Shown here: in pieces, positions 11,659-17,399 of the stretch
Numbering within the stretch: position 1 is the first letter of the stretch
How the letters are laid out: each line of letters opens with the position of its first letter
The notes under the pieces: model-generated
What the model was told of the DNA's origin: nothing
Seen by the model: only the letters and a program-made list of their open reading frames with translations
Database searches by the model: none
Position numbers and translations under genes: made by a program
NCBI RefSeq assembly: GCF_006716865.1
Contig: NZ_VFPT01000001.1
Location: 1,359,001-1,423,000 of the forward strand
Direction of reading: 5' to 3'
Length of the DNA stretch: 64,000 bases
Source: Roseinatronobacter monicus
GTDB lineage: Bacteria > Pseudomonadota > Alphaproteobacteria > Rhodobacterales > Rhodobacteraceae

Positions 11659-11780
11659 GGGGCCCGTCCTTTCGCGCCACGCCATAGGCCGGAACAGCGC
11701 GCCGCGCAAGCTGTCGCAGATGCGTCACAATCGCGTGACAGACGAAAGAAAGTTGCGTATAGGCGAAAAAGGGATTGCGG

Positions 11781-12405
11781 ATGCGGGAAATTTTAGTGGC
11801 CTTCAGAATAATTCTTCTGTTTTTTATCATCGGGTTGCCACTGTCGGCACAGGCGCAATTGCGTGCGCAGGATGGGCTGGCGGCACTTGACGCAGGCGAT
11901 ACAAAGGCCGCGCGCGCGATCTGGACACCGCTGGCGGAACGTGGCGATGTTTTGGCACAGTATAATCTGGCGGTTTTGCTGGCAACGGATGCGGGCGATC
12001 AGGCCGATTTGGAACAGGCACAGCACTGGTTTGAAGCGGCCGCGCAGCAAACGCATCTTGGCGCGCAACTGGCCCTCGCGGATATGTCGGCAGAGCAAGA
12101 TGACTGGCAGTCGGCGAAGTATTGGTATGAAGCGGCGGCCAAGGCTGGCGCGGTGCGTGCGCAATTTGCACTTGGCAAGATACTGGAGCGCGGCTTGGGC
12201 ACAGCGCCTGACCCGCAACAAGCGATACGCTGGTATCAGGCCGCCGCCGACCAAGGGCATAGGGCGGCACAATTCGCCCTTGGCGCAGCACTGGCCGAGC
12301 AGGGGCAGGATGACGCTGCCGCAGACTGGTTTGAAGCAGCCGCCGATCAGGGCCATGTTGAGGCGCGGCATAATTTGGCCCTTGCCCTTGCGCGTGGCCT
12401 TGGCC
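11781..12405 (+). pseudogene. Sel1-repeat protein, 5' part, split by mobile element
   Basis: This is the N-terminal 208 codons of a secreted or periplasmic Sel1-like repeat (TPR-type) protein. A signal peptide is evident (a charged start, a hydrophobic run, then SAQA before QL), followed by at least four Sel1 repeats of about 36 residues. Examples are GDVLAQYNLAVLLA, GAVRAQFALGKILERGLG and GHVEARHNLALALARGLG. The reading frame runs into the mobile element at 12406. Joining 12405 directly to 17119 gives a continuous 906-base frame of 301 codons plus stop, ending at 17399, which shows what was interrupted. The truncated product would read 30-odd element-encoded residues before stopping. Confidence 0.9.
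12400..12405. repeat. target-site duplication TTGGCC, left
   Basis: TTGGCC borders the left end of the 4.7-kb element and recurs at 17113-17118 on the right. Removing the element and one copy restores the Sel1 reading frame exactly, which fixes the duplication as 6 bp. Confidence 0.88.
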
Positions 12406-12498
12406 CCCAAGATGGTATGGTTGCCGCCCTTCCCCGAGAGGCATCAAAGTGCCAACATGAGTGGTGTATACGCCACAGAAATGGAGAAGGACGGCGGG

Positions 12499-13527
12499 AT
12501 GTATGATACAATGATCGGGGTAGATTTGGCAAAGCGAGTTTTTCATCTGCACGTCGCGTCGATGACAGGGCATGTGAGAGATCGCAAGAAGCTGACGCCA
12601 TTGCAGTTTCGGCGCTACATGGCGGACGCGCCGAATTGCGTTGTGGTCTTTGAAGCCTGTGGGAGCGCGCATTACTGGGCGCGGCAAATGATGGAGCTGG
12701 GCCACGAGGCGCGGATCATCCCAGCGCAGTACGTAAAGCCGTTTGTAAAACGCCATAAAAATGACCGGAATGACGCAGAGGCGATCGTGGTGGCGGCGCA
12801 GCGTCCCGAGATGCACTTCACGACGGTGAAGAGTGAACAGCAGCAGGCACGCGCGGTCGTATTTCGGGCGCGCGAACGACTTGTAAATCAGCGCACTGAG
12901 CTGGTGAACGCTTTGCGCTCAACGCTCTATGAATACGGGCACACATTCCCTGTGGGATTTGGCCATGTGAAACGGATCGCCGAACTTGTGGAGGCACCCG
13001 ATTGCGACCTACCCGCCCTTGTCGTGACGGAGTGTCAGGACTTGGTGGCGCAAATTGCTGAGAAGACAGAACGCATCACAGCGAAGGACAAGCTGATCAA
13101 GCAACTCGCAAAAGAAAGCGCTGTGGCGCGGCGCCTGCAAACGATGCCGGGTGTGGGGCCGATGACTGCATTGGCGGTTGAGGCTTTCGCACCGGATATG
13201 GAGCAATTCTCCTGCGGACGGGACTTTGCGGCCTGGCTGGGATTGGTGCCGTTGCAAAAATCGACCGGTGGCAAGAGCCGTTTGGGTAAGCTGTCCAAGA
13301 TGGGCCAGGTCGATATCCGACGTTTGCTGATCATCGGGGCGATGTCGCGGATCATCGGGCGGGCGCGTCATACGATTCCAGATGACAGCTGGCTTGGCAG
13401 GAAAGTGGCCATGAAGCCGAAGATGCTGGTTGGCATTTCGCTGGCGAACAAGATGGCCCGCCAGATCTGGGCGATGCTGACGAAGAATGAGGATTACAGA
13501 GATCCGGCGCTGGTGGGCGCGGCATGA
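12499..13527 (+). CDS. IS110 family transposase, copy 1
   Basis: The 342-residue DEDD recombinase of the IS110/IS116/IS902 family has the RuvC-like N-terminal domain: Asp9 in IGVDLAK, Glu52 in FEACG, Asp89 and Asp92 in KRHKNDRNDAEA. Its C-terminal helix-hairpin-helix transposase domain includes the LQTMPGVGPMTAL and FAAWLGLVP motifs. It moves the element through a circular intermediate using a guide RNA. I chose the ATG at 12499; in-frame ATGs at 12481 and 12457 are possible. It is intact, as is its inverted twin, from which it differs at one residue (Val versus Leu after AEL). Confidence 0.93.
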   Translation: MYDTMIGVDLAKRVFHLHVASMTGHVRDRKKLTPLQFRRYMADAPNCVVVFEACGSAHYWARQMMELGHEARIIPAQYVKPFVKRHKNDRNDAEAIVVAAQRPEMHFTTVKSEQQQARAVVFRARERLVNQRTELVNALRSTLYEYGHTFPVGFGHVKRIAELVEAPDCDLPALVVTECQDLVAQIAEKTERITAKDKLIKQLAKESAVARRLQTMPGVGPMTALAVEAFAPDMEQFSCGRDFAAWLGLVPLQKSTGGKSRLGKLSKMGQVDIRRLLIIGAMSRIIGRARHTIPDDSWLGRKVAMKPKMLVGISLANKMARQIWAMLTKNEDYRDPALVGAA

Positions 13528-13786
13528 CAGCCATGTCGTAACCTGCAAGCGTCGGTGCCAAGGGGAGTGTGAGAGTGCTATGACCTGAATGGGCGCAACG
13601 ATCGAATAGATCTGGATTGGGAAAACCATAGTTGAACTTTGCGCCAAAAGCGCTTCCCCAAGATTTGGACCCTATCCGCTGATCACCATACCGGCCGCGG
13701 CTTCCGGAAACGCCGCTCAGAACAGGCCTGAAAGAAGCACGCAATCGATCACACGCACTGAAACGGTCAAAAGACTCTTGCATCAC
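13528..13786 (+). ncRNA. candidate bridge/seekRNA region of IS1111-type element, copy 1
   Basis: These 259 bases lie between the transposase stop and the right subterminal repeat and contain no convincing ORF. In IS1111-type elements this is where the target-guiding RNA (bridge RNA or seekRNA) is encoded. Two short segments echo the insertion flanks: AGTTGAACTT (13630-13639) resembles the inner flank AGTTTAACACTT, and CCCAAGAT (13657-13664) is identical to the first eight bases of the outer flank (12406-12413). CCATACC (13686-13692) is complementary to GGTATGG at the element's left end. The RNA itself is inferred. Confidence 0.5.
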
Positions 13787-13871
13787 GGGCGGCAACCAAA
13801 GAAGTTTAACACTTATGAGCGTTAAGTGTTTGATTTTCTTGAAACGGGGCTTCAAGAAATGACACAACAGA

Positions 13872-15560
13872 TCAGGCTGGCTGCTTCGGCAGCTCTATGT
13901 TCAGCGTCCGGAACAGGTCCAGCTGTTCAGGCTCAGGGCGGGTTATTCCGTGATATGCATTCGCACCCACATGGACAGTATGCTTCTGAATCCTGCCCAG
14001 TGATTTCAGCAGCCGTGATGGCGACACAGGGCTTTGCGCGGCCCTCAGGCGCATTCGGAGAATGCGGTAGAGAACAAGGGCGAGGAAGCATACAAGGGCG
14101 TGGGCGCGGATGCGATCAGGTAGGCGGTGATAAACCGGTGCGATTTCGATTTCGGATTTAAGCACACGAAACCCCCGCTCAATATCAGCGAGTGAACGAT
14201 AGCGATGGACGACCTCTTCGGGTGTCATATCCGACAGGCTGGTGACCAGAAGGAGCTTTCCATCCAACCGTTCCGCCTGTTCAAGAGCCTCTTCGTCCAC
14301 GGAATAGGTGAAACTGGGGCTGCCAAGATCGGTCTTGATGAACCGGGTCATCTGTTTTTCCAACAGCGCCTTGTGGAAGCGCTGATAGGCGCCGCGGTCG
14401 GAACTACGCCGTCCCCGGCCATTCTCACCGGCATCTTGCGCGTCGAGCTTTCTGGCCAAGGCGTCACCAAGAGCATCAAGCTCAGCGATGATGCTCTGCC
14501 GCGCTGCTGTCTGTTCTGCTGCGCGGGCGGCATTATGCGCGATCACCAGGCGACGCTCTTCCCAGAGGGTTTCGGTGATGACATCCTGATCAACCGGGCC
14601 ATCAGCGCTGTCCAATGCAGGCTGCACCTCGCGCAGGATTTCTGCAAAGGCCGAATATCTGCGGGCTGGGACCGCCAGAATGTAATCCACGCACACGCCT
14701 TGTGCGCGGCCCAGTTCTTCCAGGGCGGCAACATTGTCGAGGCTCAGCAGCCCCCGATCTGCCACGATAACAATCCGCCTCAACGCAAAGCGCTTTTGCA
14801 GCCGTTGCAGGATCGGGACTAGCGTTCTGGTCTCGGCCACATTGCCCTCGAAGACCTCATGCGCAATCGGCAGGCCTTCGGCAGTCTGGATAACACCCAA
14901 GGCAAACTGACGGCCGATCCCATGGATATCCTTGCTTTGCCCATAGGCGCGCAGGTCATCCTCCAGCTGCGCAGTCCCATGGATGCGAACAGAAGTCACA
15001 TCATAGAAGACGACGCTCAGGTCCTTATCCAGCAAGGGATGCAGCTGGTTCGCGACCGCCTGCTCCACCGCGTCCTTGTTCTCTTCGAGCGCATCCATGG
15101 CGCGCATGTGCTGCATGTGATGAACAGCTTCAGGATCAATGCCGGGCATGCTTGTCTCTGCGCGGAGCCATTCGACAACGCCGATCTCGCTGGTGGGGTC
15201 GATCAACCGGTTGAAAACCATCGCCCGCACCAGAGCTTCTGCGTCGAACTGACGGCGTGAGGAGCGCAGGGCGCGGCGCAATGCATCTGACAATCCCAGC
15301 TCATGCCAGAGCTGATGGAGCACCCAGACATCCCCAAATGTCTTGGAGCTGTCGAATTTCGGAGGCTCGGGCAGCATTTCTGGTCGGCCTGCCGCGCGCT
15401 GAAGGCCGTGGATCAGCGCCGACAGATTTTTCTCGCCCATCTTGTCCAGCCGGCCCAGATTGGCGATGACCTTTTGCTTCACACGCCCTGCCTCGTCGCG
15501 GTAGCCCTCGACGATTTGCAGGTAGCTGCGGTTGCCTGATTTTGATACGCGCACATACAT
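13872..15560 (-). CDS. IS1634 family transposase
   Basis: A 562-residue DDE transposase of the IS1634 group (IS4 clade). Likely catalytic residues are Asp187 (VVFYDVTSV), Asp268 (VIVADRGLLS) and Glu461 in the YRSLADIERGFRVLKSE signature, with a long beta-rich insertion between the second Asp and the Glu. The N-terminus (MYVRVSKSGNRSYLQIVEGY) is typical of full-length family members, so the gene appears intact. Its terminal repeats, however, are interrupted by IS110-type copies, so the element may be immobile as it stands. The upstream flank (15561-15703) is AT-rich and should hold its promoter; no other gene is seen there. Confidence 0.92.
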   Translation of the reverse strand: MYVRVSKSGNRSYLQIVEGYRDEAGRVKQKVIANLGRLDKMGEKNLSALIHGLQRAAGRPEMLPEPPKFDSSKTFGDVWVLHQLWHELGLSDALRRALRSSRRQFDAEALVRAMVFNRLIDPTSEIGVVEWLRAETSMPGIDPEAVHHMQHMRAMDALEENKDAVEQAVANQLHPLLDKDLSVVFYDVTSVRIHGTAQLEDDLRAYGQSKDIHGIGRQFALGVIQTAEGLPIAHEVFEGNVAETRTLVPILQRLQKRFALRRIVIVADRGLLSLDNVAALEELGRAQGVCVDYILAVPARRYSAFAEILREVQPALDSADGPVDQDVITETLWEERRLVIAHNAARAAEQTAARQSIIAELDALGDALARKLDAQDAGENGRGRRSSDRGAYQRFHKALLEKQMTRFIKTDLGSPSFTYSVDEEALEQAERLDGKLLLVTSLSDMTPEEVVHRYRSLADIERGFRVLKSEIEIAPVYHRLPDRIRAHALVCFLALVLYRILRMRLRAAQSPVSPSRLLKSLGRIQKHTVHVGANAYHGITRPEPEQLDLFRTLNIELPKQPA

Positions 15561-15731
15561 GACACGACGATACCGTTATTTTAGCTATCTATCAATAATC
15601 AATATTACCATCGCGTGACACAACAACGCTTAAGAGAATTTGCCCCTCCAACCCAAAGGAATTCAACACCTTAGCCCTCAAAATCGGCCAGAATCCCGGC
15701 CAAAAGTGTTAAACTTCTTTGGTTGCCGCCC

Positions 15732-15990
15732 GTGATGCAAGAGTCTTTTGACCGTTTCAGTGCGTGTGATCGATTGCGTGCTTCTTTCAGGCCTGTTCTG
15801 AGCGGCGTTTCCGGAAGCCGCGGCCGGTATGGTGATCAGCGGATAGGGTCCAAATCTTGGGGAAGCGCTTTTGGCGCAAAGTTCAACTATGGTTTTCCCA
15901 ATCCAGATCTATTCGATCGTTGCGCCCATTCAGGTCATAGCACTCTCACACTCCCCTTGGCACCGACGCTTGCAGGTTACGACATGGCTG
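15732..15990 (-). ncRNA. candidate bridge/seekRNA region of IS1111-type element, copy 2
   Basis: Inverted duplicate of the copy 1 non-coding region. The same flank-matching segments occur at 15854-15861 (CCCAAGAT) and 15879-15888 (AGTTGAACTT) when read on the minus strand. Together with 15561-15703 it accounts for the long gene-free stretch here. Confidence 0.5.
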
Positions 15991-17019
15991 TCATGCCGCG
16001 CCCACCAGCGCCGGATCTCTGTAATCCTCATTCTTCGTCAGCATCGCCCAGATCTGGCGGGCCATCTTGTTCGCCAGCGAAATGCCAACCAGCATCTTCG
16101 GCTTCATGGCCACTTTCCTGCCAAGCCAGCTGTCATCTGGAATCGTATGACGCGCCCGCCCGATGATCCGCGACATCGCCCCGATGATCAGCAAACGTCG
16201 GATATCGACCTGGCCCATCTTGGACAGCTTACCCAAACGGCTCTTGCCACCGGTCGATTTTTGCAACGGCACCAATCCCAGCCAGGCCGCAAAGTCCCGT
16301 CCGCAGGAGAATTGCTCCATATCCGGTGCGAAAGCCTCAACCGCCAATGCAGTCATCGGCCCCACACCCGGCATCGTTTGCAGGCGCCGCGCCACAGCGC
16401 TTTCTTTTGCGAGTTGCTTGATCAGCTTGTCCTTCGCTGTGATGCGTTCTGTCTTCTCAGCAATTTGCGCCACCAAGTCCTGACACTCCGTCACGACAAG
16501 GGCGGGTAGGTCGCAATCGGGTGCCTCCAACAGTTCGGCGATCCGTTTCACATGGCCAAATCCCACAGGGAATGTGTGCCCGTATTCATAGAGCGTTGAG
16601 CGCAAAGCGTTCACCAGCTCAGTGCGCTGATTTACAAGTCGTTCGCGCGCCCGAAATACGACCGCGCGTGCCTGCTGCTGTTCACTCTTCACCGTCGTGA
16701 AGTGCATCTCGGGACGCTGCGCCGCCACCACGATCGCCTCTGCGTCATTCCGGTCATTTTTATGGCGTTTTACAAACGGCTTTACGTACTGCGCTGGGAT
16801 GATCCGCGCCTCGTGGCCCAGCTCCATCATTTGCCGCGCCCAGTAATGCGCGCTCCCACAGGCTTCAAAGACCACAACGCAATTCGGCGCGTCCGCCATG
16901 TAGCGCCGAAACTGCAATGGCGTCAGCTTCTTGCGATCTCTCACATGCCCTGTCATCGACGCGACGTGCAGATGAAAAACTCGCTTTGCCAAATCTACCC
17001 CGATCATTGTATCATACAT
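15991..17019 (-). CDS. IS110 family transposase, copy 2
   Basis: The 342-residue transposase has the same DEDD residues (9, 52, 89, 92) and the same C-terminal domain as copy 1, with Leu in place of Val in the RIAELLEAP segment. Both copies are full length and presumably active, so they probably arrived recently or are kept identical by gene conversion between the inverted arms. Confidence 0.93.
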   Translation of the reverse strand: MYDTMIGVDLAKRVFHLHVASMTGHVRDRKKLTPLQFRRYMADAPNCVVVFEACGSAHYWARQMMELGHEARIIPAQYVKPFVKRHKNDRNDAEAIVVAAQRPEMHFTTVKSEQQQARAVVFRARERLVNQRTELVNALRSTLYEYGHTFPVGFGHVKRIAELLEAPDCDLPALVVTECQDLVAQIAEKTERITAKDKLIKQLAKESAVARRLQTMPGVGPMTALAVEAFAPDMEQFSCGRDFAAWLGLVPLQKSTGGKSRLGKLSKMGQVDIRRLLIIGAMSRIIGRARHTIPDDSWLGRKVAMKPKMLVGISLANKMARQIWAMLTKNEDYRDPALVGAA

Positions 17020-17112
17020 CCCGCCGTCCTTCTCCATTTCTGTGGCGTATACACCACTCATGTTGGCACTTTGATGCCTCTCGGGGAAGGGCGGCAACCA
17101 TACCATCTTGGG

Positions 17113-17118
17113 TTGGCC
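17113..17118. repeat. target-site duplication TTGGCC, right
   Basis: Right-hand copy of the 6-bp direct repeat flanking the nested element; see 12400-12405. Confidence 0.88.
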
Positions 17119-17399
17119 GCCCTCAGGACGCAGCGGCCGCGCGGCGTCACTATCTGCGCGCGGTCGCAGCGGGCTATGCGCCCTCAACCTACAATCTGGC
17201 GCTGATGCAGGCACAGGGGCGCGGCGGGGTGCAGAATTTCCGCAAGGCACTGGCACTGGCGATGATGGCGCAATCCTTGGGGCATGGCCCCGCCGAACAC
17301 CTTATCGACGCATTGCGCGAGGTGATGCCAGCAGATGCGATTGCACAGGCCGAGGGGCTGGTTGCGCAATGCGAAACCAACCCCGATCTGTGCGGCTGA
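17119..17399 (+). pseudogene. Sel1-repeat protein, 3' part
   Basis: These 281 bases are the C-terminal part of the interrupted Sel1-repeat gene, continuing the frame from 12405. They encode a further Sel1 repeat (ARRHYLRAVAAGYAPSTYNL), another repeat-like segment (NFRKALALAMMAQSLGHGPA) and a C-terminal tail ending in CETNPDLCG, where the two Cys could pair in the periplasm. It lacks its own start signal and is not expected to be expressed. Confidence 0.88.

Follow-up and report, generated by a model that had tools for sequence, protein, structure and literature searches.

A predicted guide RNA that may read both the target and the right end of an IS1111-type insertion sequence found in the ends of an IS1634 element

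The window, the whole stretch of 64,000 nucleotides of Roseinatronobacter monicus DNA analysed here, contains an IS1634-family element with an IS1111-type insertion sequence (IS) in each of its terminal inverted repeats. The IS1634 element splits a Sel1-repeat gene (11775-12405 and 17119-17399; continuity judged by eye). The features, in window positions, are as follows.

12400..12405, no strand: TTGGCC, left copy of the 6-bp target duplication by the IS1634 element (by eye)
12406..12409, plus strand: CCCA, outer tip of the IS1634 inverted repeat and left half of the IS1111 target
12410..13802, plus strand: IS1111-type IS, copy 1 (1393 bp; boundaries via aligned elements)
12410-12411: core AG of copy 1 (the target's copy is at 13803-13804)
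12418..12429, plus strand: left subterminal inverted repeat, TGGTTGCCGCCC
12499..13527, plus strand: transposase/recombinase, DEDD (IS110 family), 342 aa if the start is the ATG at 12499
13584..13757, plus strand: guide RNA, two-loop bridge/seekRNA as modelled, with predicted ends (consensus fold; model R1, 164.9 bits)
13631..13638, plus strand: right target guide GTTGAACT, antisense to AGTTTAAC, the core plus right half (from covariation)
13656..13662, plus strand: left target guide CCCCAAG, same sense as left half plus core (from covariation)
13685..13692, plus strand: candidate right donor guide, ACCATACC
13731..13737, plus strand: putative left donor guide AAAGAAG, equal to the right end AAAGA plus core AG (from 5-mer identity)
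13787..13798, plus strand: right subterminal inverted repeat, GGGCGGCAACCA
13803..13814, plus strand: AGTTTAACACTT, inner IS1634 repeat, core plus right half of the target
13872..15560, minus strand: IS1634-family transposase of the targeted element, 562 aa (NCBIfam transpos_IS1634, E 2.2e-116)
15716..17108, minus strand: IS1111-type IS, copy 2, in the other IS1634 inverted repeat
15761-15934, minus strand: guide RNA of copy 2
17113-17118: TTGGCC, right copy of the duplication

By the features tested, the inserted element is of the IS1111 type within the IS110 family. Its protein combines the Pfam domains DEDD_Tnp_IS110 (RuvC-like) and Transposase_20, as in IS1111 (NCBIfam transpos_IS110, E 4.3e-84), and its translation contains GLVPLQKSTG, which by eye fits the GL-P----S(t)G motif described for IS1111 in the available part of PMC11187229. 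The subterminal repeats are perfect over 12 bp and leave 8 and 4 bp on their outer sides, which becomes 7 and 3 when a mismatched 13th pair is included; relatives such as L045 have 13-bp repeats with 7 and 3 outside. This corresponds to the IS1111 pattern of 11-13 bp repeats with about 7 and 3 bp outside, and the non-coding stretch 3' of the transposase gene (13528-13802) is likewise an IS1111 trait. Aligned elements place the ends at AGATGG...AAAGA, with one AG common to element and target. The two copies differ by 2 mismatches in 1393 bases.

Relatives of the transposase were sought in 147 and 394 genomes, of which 10 and 26 matched at the set limits (own genome included); a search of genome contigs added one more. 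The nearest relative found (L074, 73% protein identity) has another site and other guides. The comparisons rest on 26 elements, namely the window element and 25 of 39 relative loci. Left out were loci in which no repeat was found (L047, L056, L090, L091), those without a right arm (L087, L093) and those in which the left-end pattern was not found (L052, L057, L059, L075, L089, L095, L096, L097). The hold-out consists of 18 plasmid elements fetched later, hand-picked among 40 listed of 393 records; 16 of them were scored, L114 and L120 having no recognised arm pair. The genomic copies L005-L007, which have the same guides as the window element, were excluded from the permutations and scans. The scans compared NCR columns with flank and end positions, in both senses and by permutation, in the 26 elements and in 42 (the 26 plus the 16 held-out). 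The genome of R. monicus also carries a second IS1111-type element (L137/L138), in whose RNA ACACACG equals the right end ACACA plus CG, and CTGAAC equals its own left flank; a right-guide match was looked for there by eye and not found.

RNAalifold predicts 30 pairs for the 26 sequences, 10 of them doubly changed (mean 4.4 after shuffling, with none of 500 shuffles reaching 10), and the consensus fold has 96.8% paired cells. In this fold, a small hairpin sits on an internal loop with one target guide on each side, and a second hairpin is flanked by the donor segments, so that the guide segments fall in internal loops. A covariance model recovers the RNA from the two copies in the window and from all 18 plasmid loci, L114 and L120 included; in the own genome it finds all seven copies and three more places. 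L139 (G000:C3:49717-49884) is a weak match to the model, at 42 bits. No Rfam family was found on the RNA itself, and the one match, below the gathering score, lies elsewhere.

The evidence that the RNA reads the target comes from comparison of elements with differing sites. The right guide agrees exactly with flank positions RF+2..+7 in 28-34 of the 42 elements at each position, and the left guide with LF-5..-1 in 32-40; the AT just after the left guide hardly varies among the RNAs (at least 90% of the 26). Scoring Watson-Crick or wobble pairs and leaving out the core, 242 of 286 guide positions pair with the element's own flanks in the 26 elements, compared with a mean of 119 (sd 8.7) and a maximum of 165 in 100,000 permutations. 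In the held-out 16, 157 of 176 positions pair (permutation mean 76.8, maximum 119), a test made conservative by look-alike targets among some of these elements. Sliding the register by one base reduces the own pairs of the right guide from 125 to 75 or 89, and those of the left guide from 117 to 51 or 46; this control is partly circular, because the structure was derived from the same sequences. With ties counted against it, the own site ranked first in 17 elements of the 26 and not in the other nine. Of 20,000 Markov resamples drawn from 13528-13797, 1 contained an 8-nt right guide, with wobble permitted, and an exact 7-nt left guide 8-40 nt beyond it, under a rule fixed after the pattern had been seen.

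The scans point to the same segments. In the 26 elements, the strongest signals link columns 13660, 13659, 13658 and 13656, in the same sense, to left flank -1, -2, -3 and -5, columns 13661 and 13736 to the core, and columns 13734 and 13732 to positions -2 and -4 of the right end; complementary matches to the right flank also belong to this top group. Left flank -4 ranked lower, among low-information columns, as did some positions of the right flank. In the 42 elements the diagonals are complete: left flank -5 to -1 reaches z 7.7-10.5, and right flank +2 to +7, whose complement runs from 13636 to 13631, reaches z 6.2-8.0. The first core letter reaches z 7.2-7.9 and right-end positions -4 and -2 reach 8.1 and 8.9, while flank positions beyond the footprint stay at z of at most 4.0. 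The expected diagonals are thus the leading signals once we set aside near-invariant columns, in which single sequences give spurious z near 5, and the core-correlated column 13590 (z 7.2), none of which was read as a guide.

The agreement is not uniform. In the fixed register, the right guide makes only 2-3 of 6 pairs in six of the 26 elements (L048, L049, L051, L055, L064, L086) and equally few in three of the held-out 16 (L118, L125, L128); by eye, some of these guides resemble one-base shifts, which were left unscored. The left guide matches at 2 of 5 positions in L078 and at 3 of 5 in L064, L083, L094 and the held-out L111. The two junction cores of L048 and of L050 differ from each other, and the RNAs of L050 and L051 have CG as core letters, compared with TG at the left junction.

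The first-pass annotation had proposed a guide RNA here, and the own-flank pairing by permutation, the held-out elements and the consensus fold support that interpretation; homologues with other targets bear other guide segments, which match their own targets. The three strings it singled out, AGTTGAACTT (13630-13639), CCCAAGAT (13657-13664) and CCATACC (13686-13692), are placed correctly. AGTTGAACTT does belong to a target guide, but through being the reverse complement of A-AG-TTTAAC (with one G:T wobble) and not through direct resemblance to the inner flank. CCCAAGAT was read as the outer flank, which holds for CCCA and the core AG, whereas its final AT is the start of the element (AGATGG); as a guide, the segment begins one base further left (CCCCAAG).

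The RNA also appears to copy the element's own right end. Positions 13731-13735 equal that end in all 26 elements and in all 16 held-out ones. The end is AAAGA here and ACAGA, ACAAA, ATACA and others elsewhere; it varies at positions -4 and -2, and the RNA 5-mer follows, as does the first core letter in 40-41 of 42. On a quick transposase tree of the 26, in which 8 of 23 inner branches are open, 10 changes are counted for the right end and 10 for the RNA 5-mer. Positions 13731-13737, missed at first pass, are strongly supported by this comparison as a predicted left donor guide, and this is the best-supported donor guide. For the opposite end, 13686-13689 can pair with the left end and, after a skip, so can 13691-13692; the last of the first four bases is a U facing A or G. 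No covariation with the left end was found in the 42 elements. As the columns barely vary, the pairing is compatible with the data and not demonstrated, and CCATACC, proposed earlier as a donor guide, keeps only this compatibility. A count at 13685 that assumed one left-repeat sequence for all elements is unused.

These observations bear on a simpler reading, in which the RNA is a pure seekRNA that reads the target only, the protein recognises the ends via the subterminal repeats, and 13731-13737 is a relic or has another role. We regard it as unlikely. An 82-nt seekRNA is reported, in the available part of PMC11187229, to suffice for movement of ISEc11, and the right donor segment that had been named earlier lacks covariation. 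A relic would decay, however, whereas the identity between right end and RNA is complete despite the variable positions and is kept through the 10 changes on the tree, with the first core letter following.

The target itself can be described from the flanks. Both window copies have CCCA outside and AGTTTAACACTT inside, and we infer that the empty target is CCCA^AGTTTAACACTT. A second IS1634/IS1111 locus in the genome has TGTTCC on both sides (by eye); with 6-bp duplications outside each IS1111 pair, the IS1634 terminal repeat starts with CCC. The two inverted sites noticed at first pass are both hit, and can now be specified as the terminal inverted repeats at either end of a single IS1634 element. 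With such a repeat as the preferred target, insertion occurs in both ends and in opposite orientations.

Seven full copies of the IS are present in the genome (L001-L007). Four of them form pairs in both ends of two IS1634 elements and L005 lies in one end of a more diverged IS1634, so that IS1634 ends hold five of the seven; L006 and L007 are in other sequence on contig C4. Joining the flanks of L006 gives an open frame that spans the site and is 298 codons long, the next best having 98. For L007 the frame is 260 codons, and with a next-best frame of 208 this case is less clear. Phage records searched with one C4 flank gave no match. AGTT[TC]AAC stands to the right of all seven copies, and the left five bases agree with the guide at 5, 4, 4, 5, 4, 3 and 3 of 5 positions in L001 to L007, hence at only three in the two C4 copies. 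A search of the own genome for an unoccupied site that combines AGTTYAAC with the full set of five left bases found none; the shorter CAAGTTYAAC is present 13 times elsewhere, each time with an incomplete match to the left five. A first empty-target pattern had given 0 matches in the own genome, but it demanded at least one extra A between the halves, which put the site as now defined out of its reach.

In two close IS1634 relatives, the unoccupied ends lack the exact site, namely both ends of L015 (CCCAAC) and one of L017 (TTACAG), which are small numbers; the ends of more distant IS1634 elements in the genome were examined by motif only. L015 is uninterrupted, and each of its ends reads CCCAACTTTAACACTT, which departs from the target by one core base. 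An escape mutation was considered for it, but CCCAAC likewise stands at either end of L129, a 94% relative from another genome, so the L015 state may be the older one and escape is not claimed. The core base at occupied IS1634 ends possibly came from the element; the junction cores at the five occupied ends, AG in all ten, were counted against this.

Several observations concern the arrangement of these elements. L015, L016 and L017 (G000:C1:1110926-1114604) represent one IS1634 nested inside a more diverged IS1634, the other end of which bears the L005 copy. At L008 (G000:C1:97879-97942), an IS1634-like end (CCCAAGTTAATCAACA) cuts a 64-bp remnant of the left end of the IS1111 element. The idea that IS1111-IS1634-IS1111 moves as a single composite unit is not supported, as copies pair by locus and not by end. 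A search of plasmid DNA with the IS1634 element returned 14 records, none covering 80%, and is unused.

The pairing by locus leads to the question of whether the two window copies arose by inversion or gene conversion between the IS1634 ends, instead of by two guided insertions. Copies within a locus are indeed nearly identical (2, 0 and 0 differences), and comparisons between loci among L001-L005 show 20-26 differences, with L005 against L003/L004 (4) as the exception. Yet conversion levels copies but does not place them, and each IS1634 end has been struck at the same base and with the same core, as at the L005 end and the two C4 sites. We therefore consider this explanation quite improbable. 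That the echoes are due to chance or phylogeny, with related elements inheriting both flank and RNA letters, is hardly conceivable: the elements are related and some have the same type of target site (L045/L076) or look alike by eye (L112/L119, L116/L124, L121/L122), but flanks differ in most elements, it is rejected by each of three tests, permutation, register sliding and hold-out, with own pairs far outside the permutation range, and where the near-identical flanks of L045 and L076 differ, at one base of the right half, the guide base changes too.

Taken together, the region almost certainly encodes the guide RNA of an IS1111-type IS, which would read the target and the element's own right end. 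The sequence comparison shows that the 5' side of the first internal loop has a segment reading the right half and core, its 3' side one reading the left half and core, on opposite strands, and the 3' side of the second loop one reading the element's own right end and core. The recombinase would bind the RNA, which would pair the end junction of the circular element with a 13-bp target made up of 5 bases, AG and 6 bases, and recombination would take place at the AG. On balance, we also favour a more specific version, in which the RNAs of this alphaproteobacterial IS1111 group may read the two ends unevenly, the right by a co-evolving guide and the left by a fixed, discontinuous segment, with the element as an RNA-guided parasite of IS1634 that would have filled all exactly matching IS1634 ends of the genome.

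RNAs of the seekRNA/bridge RNA kind are already known, and the predicted RNA in the window is ordinary in kind, though well supported. With the IS1111 seekRNAs of ISEc11, ISKpn4 and ISPa11, as far as described in the available part of PMC11187229, it shares the DEDD transposase, the subterminal inverted repeats, the 3' non-coding RNA, guides that match the element's own insertion site and overlap at the insertion point, and the common order of right guide before left, the top-strand complement preceding the bottom-strand match. That part of the paper describes target segments, whereas the present RNA contains a copy of the element's right end as well. With the IS621 bridge RNA, in the available part of PMC11208160, the shared feature is the two internal loops, each of which in IS621 has left and right guides that covary with target and donor. 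In contrast to IS621, where the RNA lies upstream of the recombinase gene and the bottom-strand guide comes first, the RNA here is downstream and the guide order in the target loop is reversed; the long subterminal repeats also differ. In the accessible descriptions, IS4321 and IS5075, also of the IS1111 family, insert in the terminal inverted repeats of another mobile element, those of the Tn21 family instead of IS1634, and are a direct precedent for invading another element's ends. Among the plasmid relatives, L121, L122, L126 and L128 adjoin istA of IS21, an IS481 transposase gene or another transposase gene, and several members of the IS1111 group perhaps target mobile elements.

In the portions at hand, Siddiquee et al. 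2024 note that the two families may work by different mechanisms, above all where end recognition is concerned (PMC11187229), and Durrant et al. 2024 proposed the donor-binding nucleotides in IS1111 by inspection, examining six elements, three per group, by eye for target and donor complementarity (PMC11208160). The covariation evidence that IS1111 RNAs may also read the element's own end is, within the literature searched, modestly new. The covariation of 13731-13737 with the right end offers a simple mutational test of how IS1111 elements recognise their ends. If the uneven reading is true, end recognition would be half programmable. The IS1111 group is in addition a natural set of reprogrammed guides.
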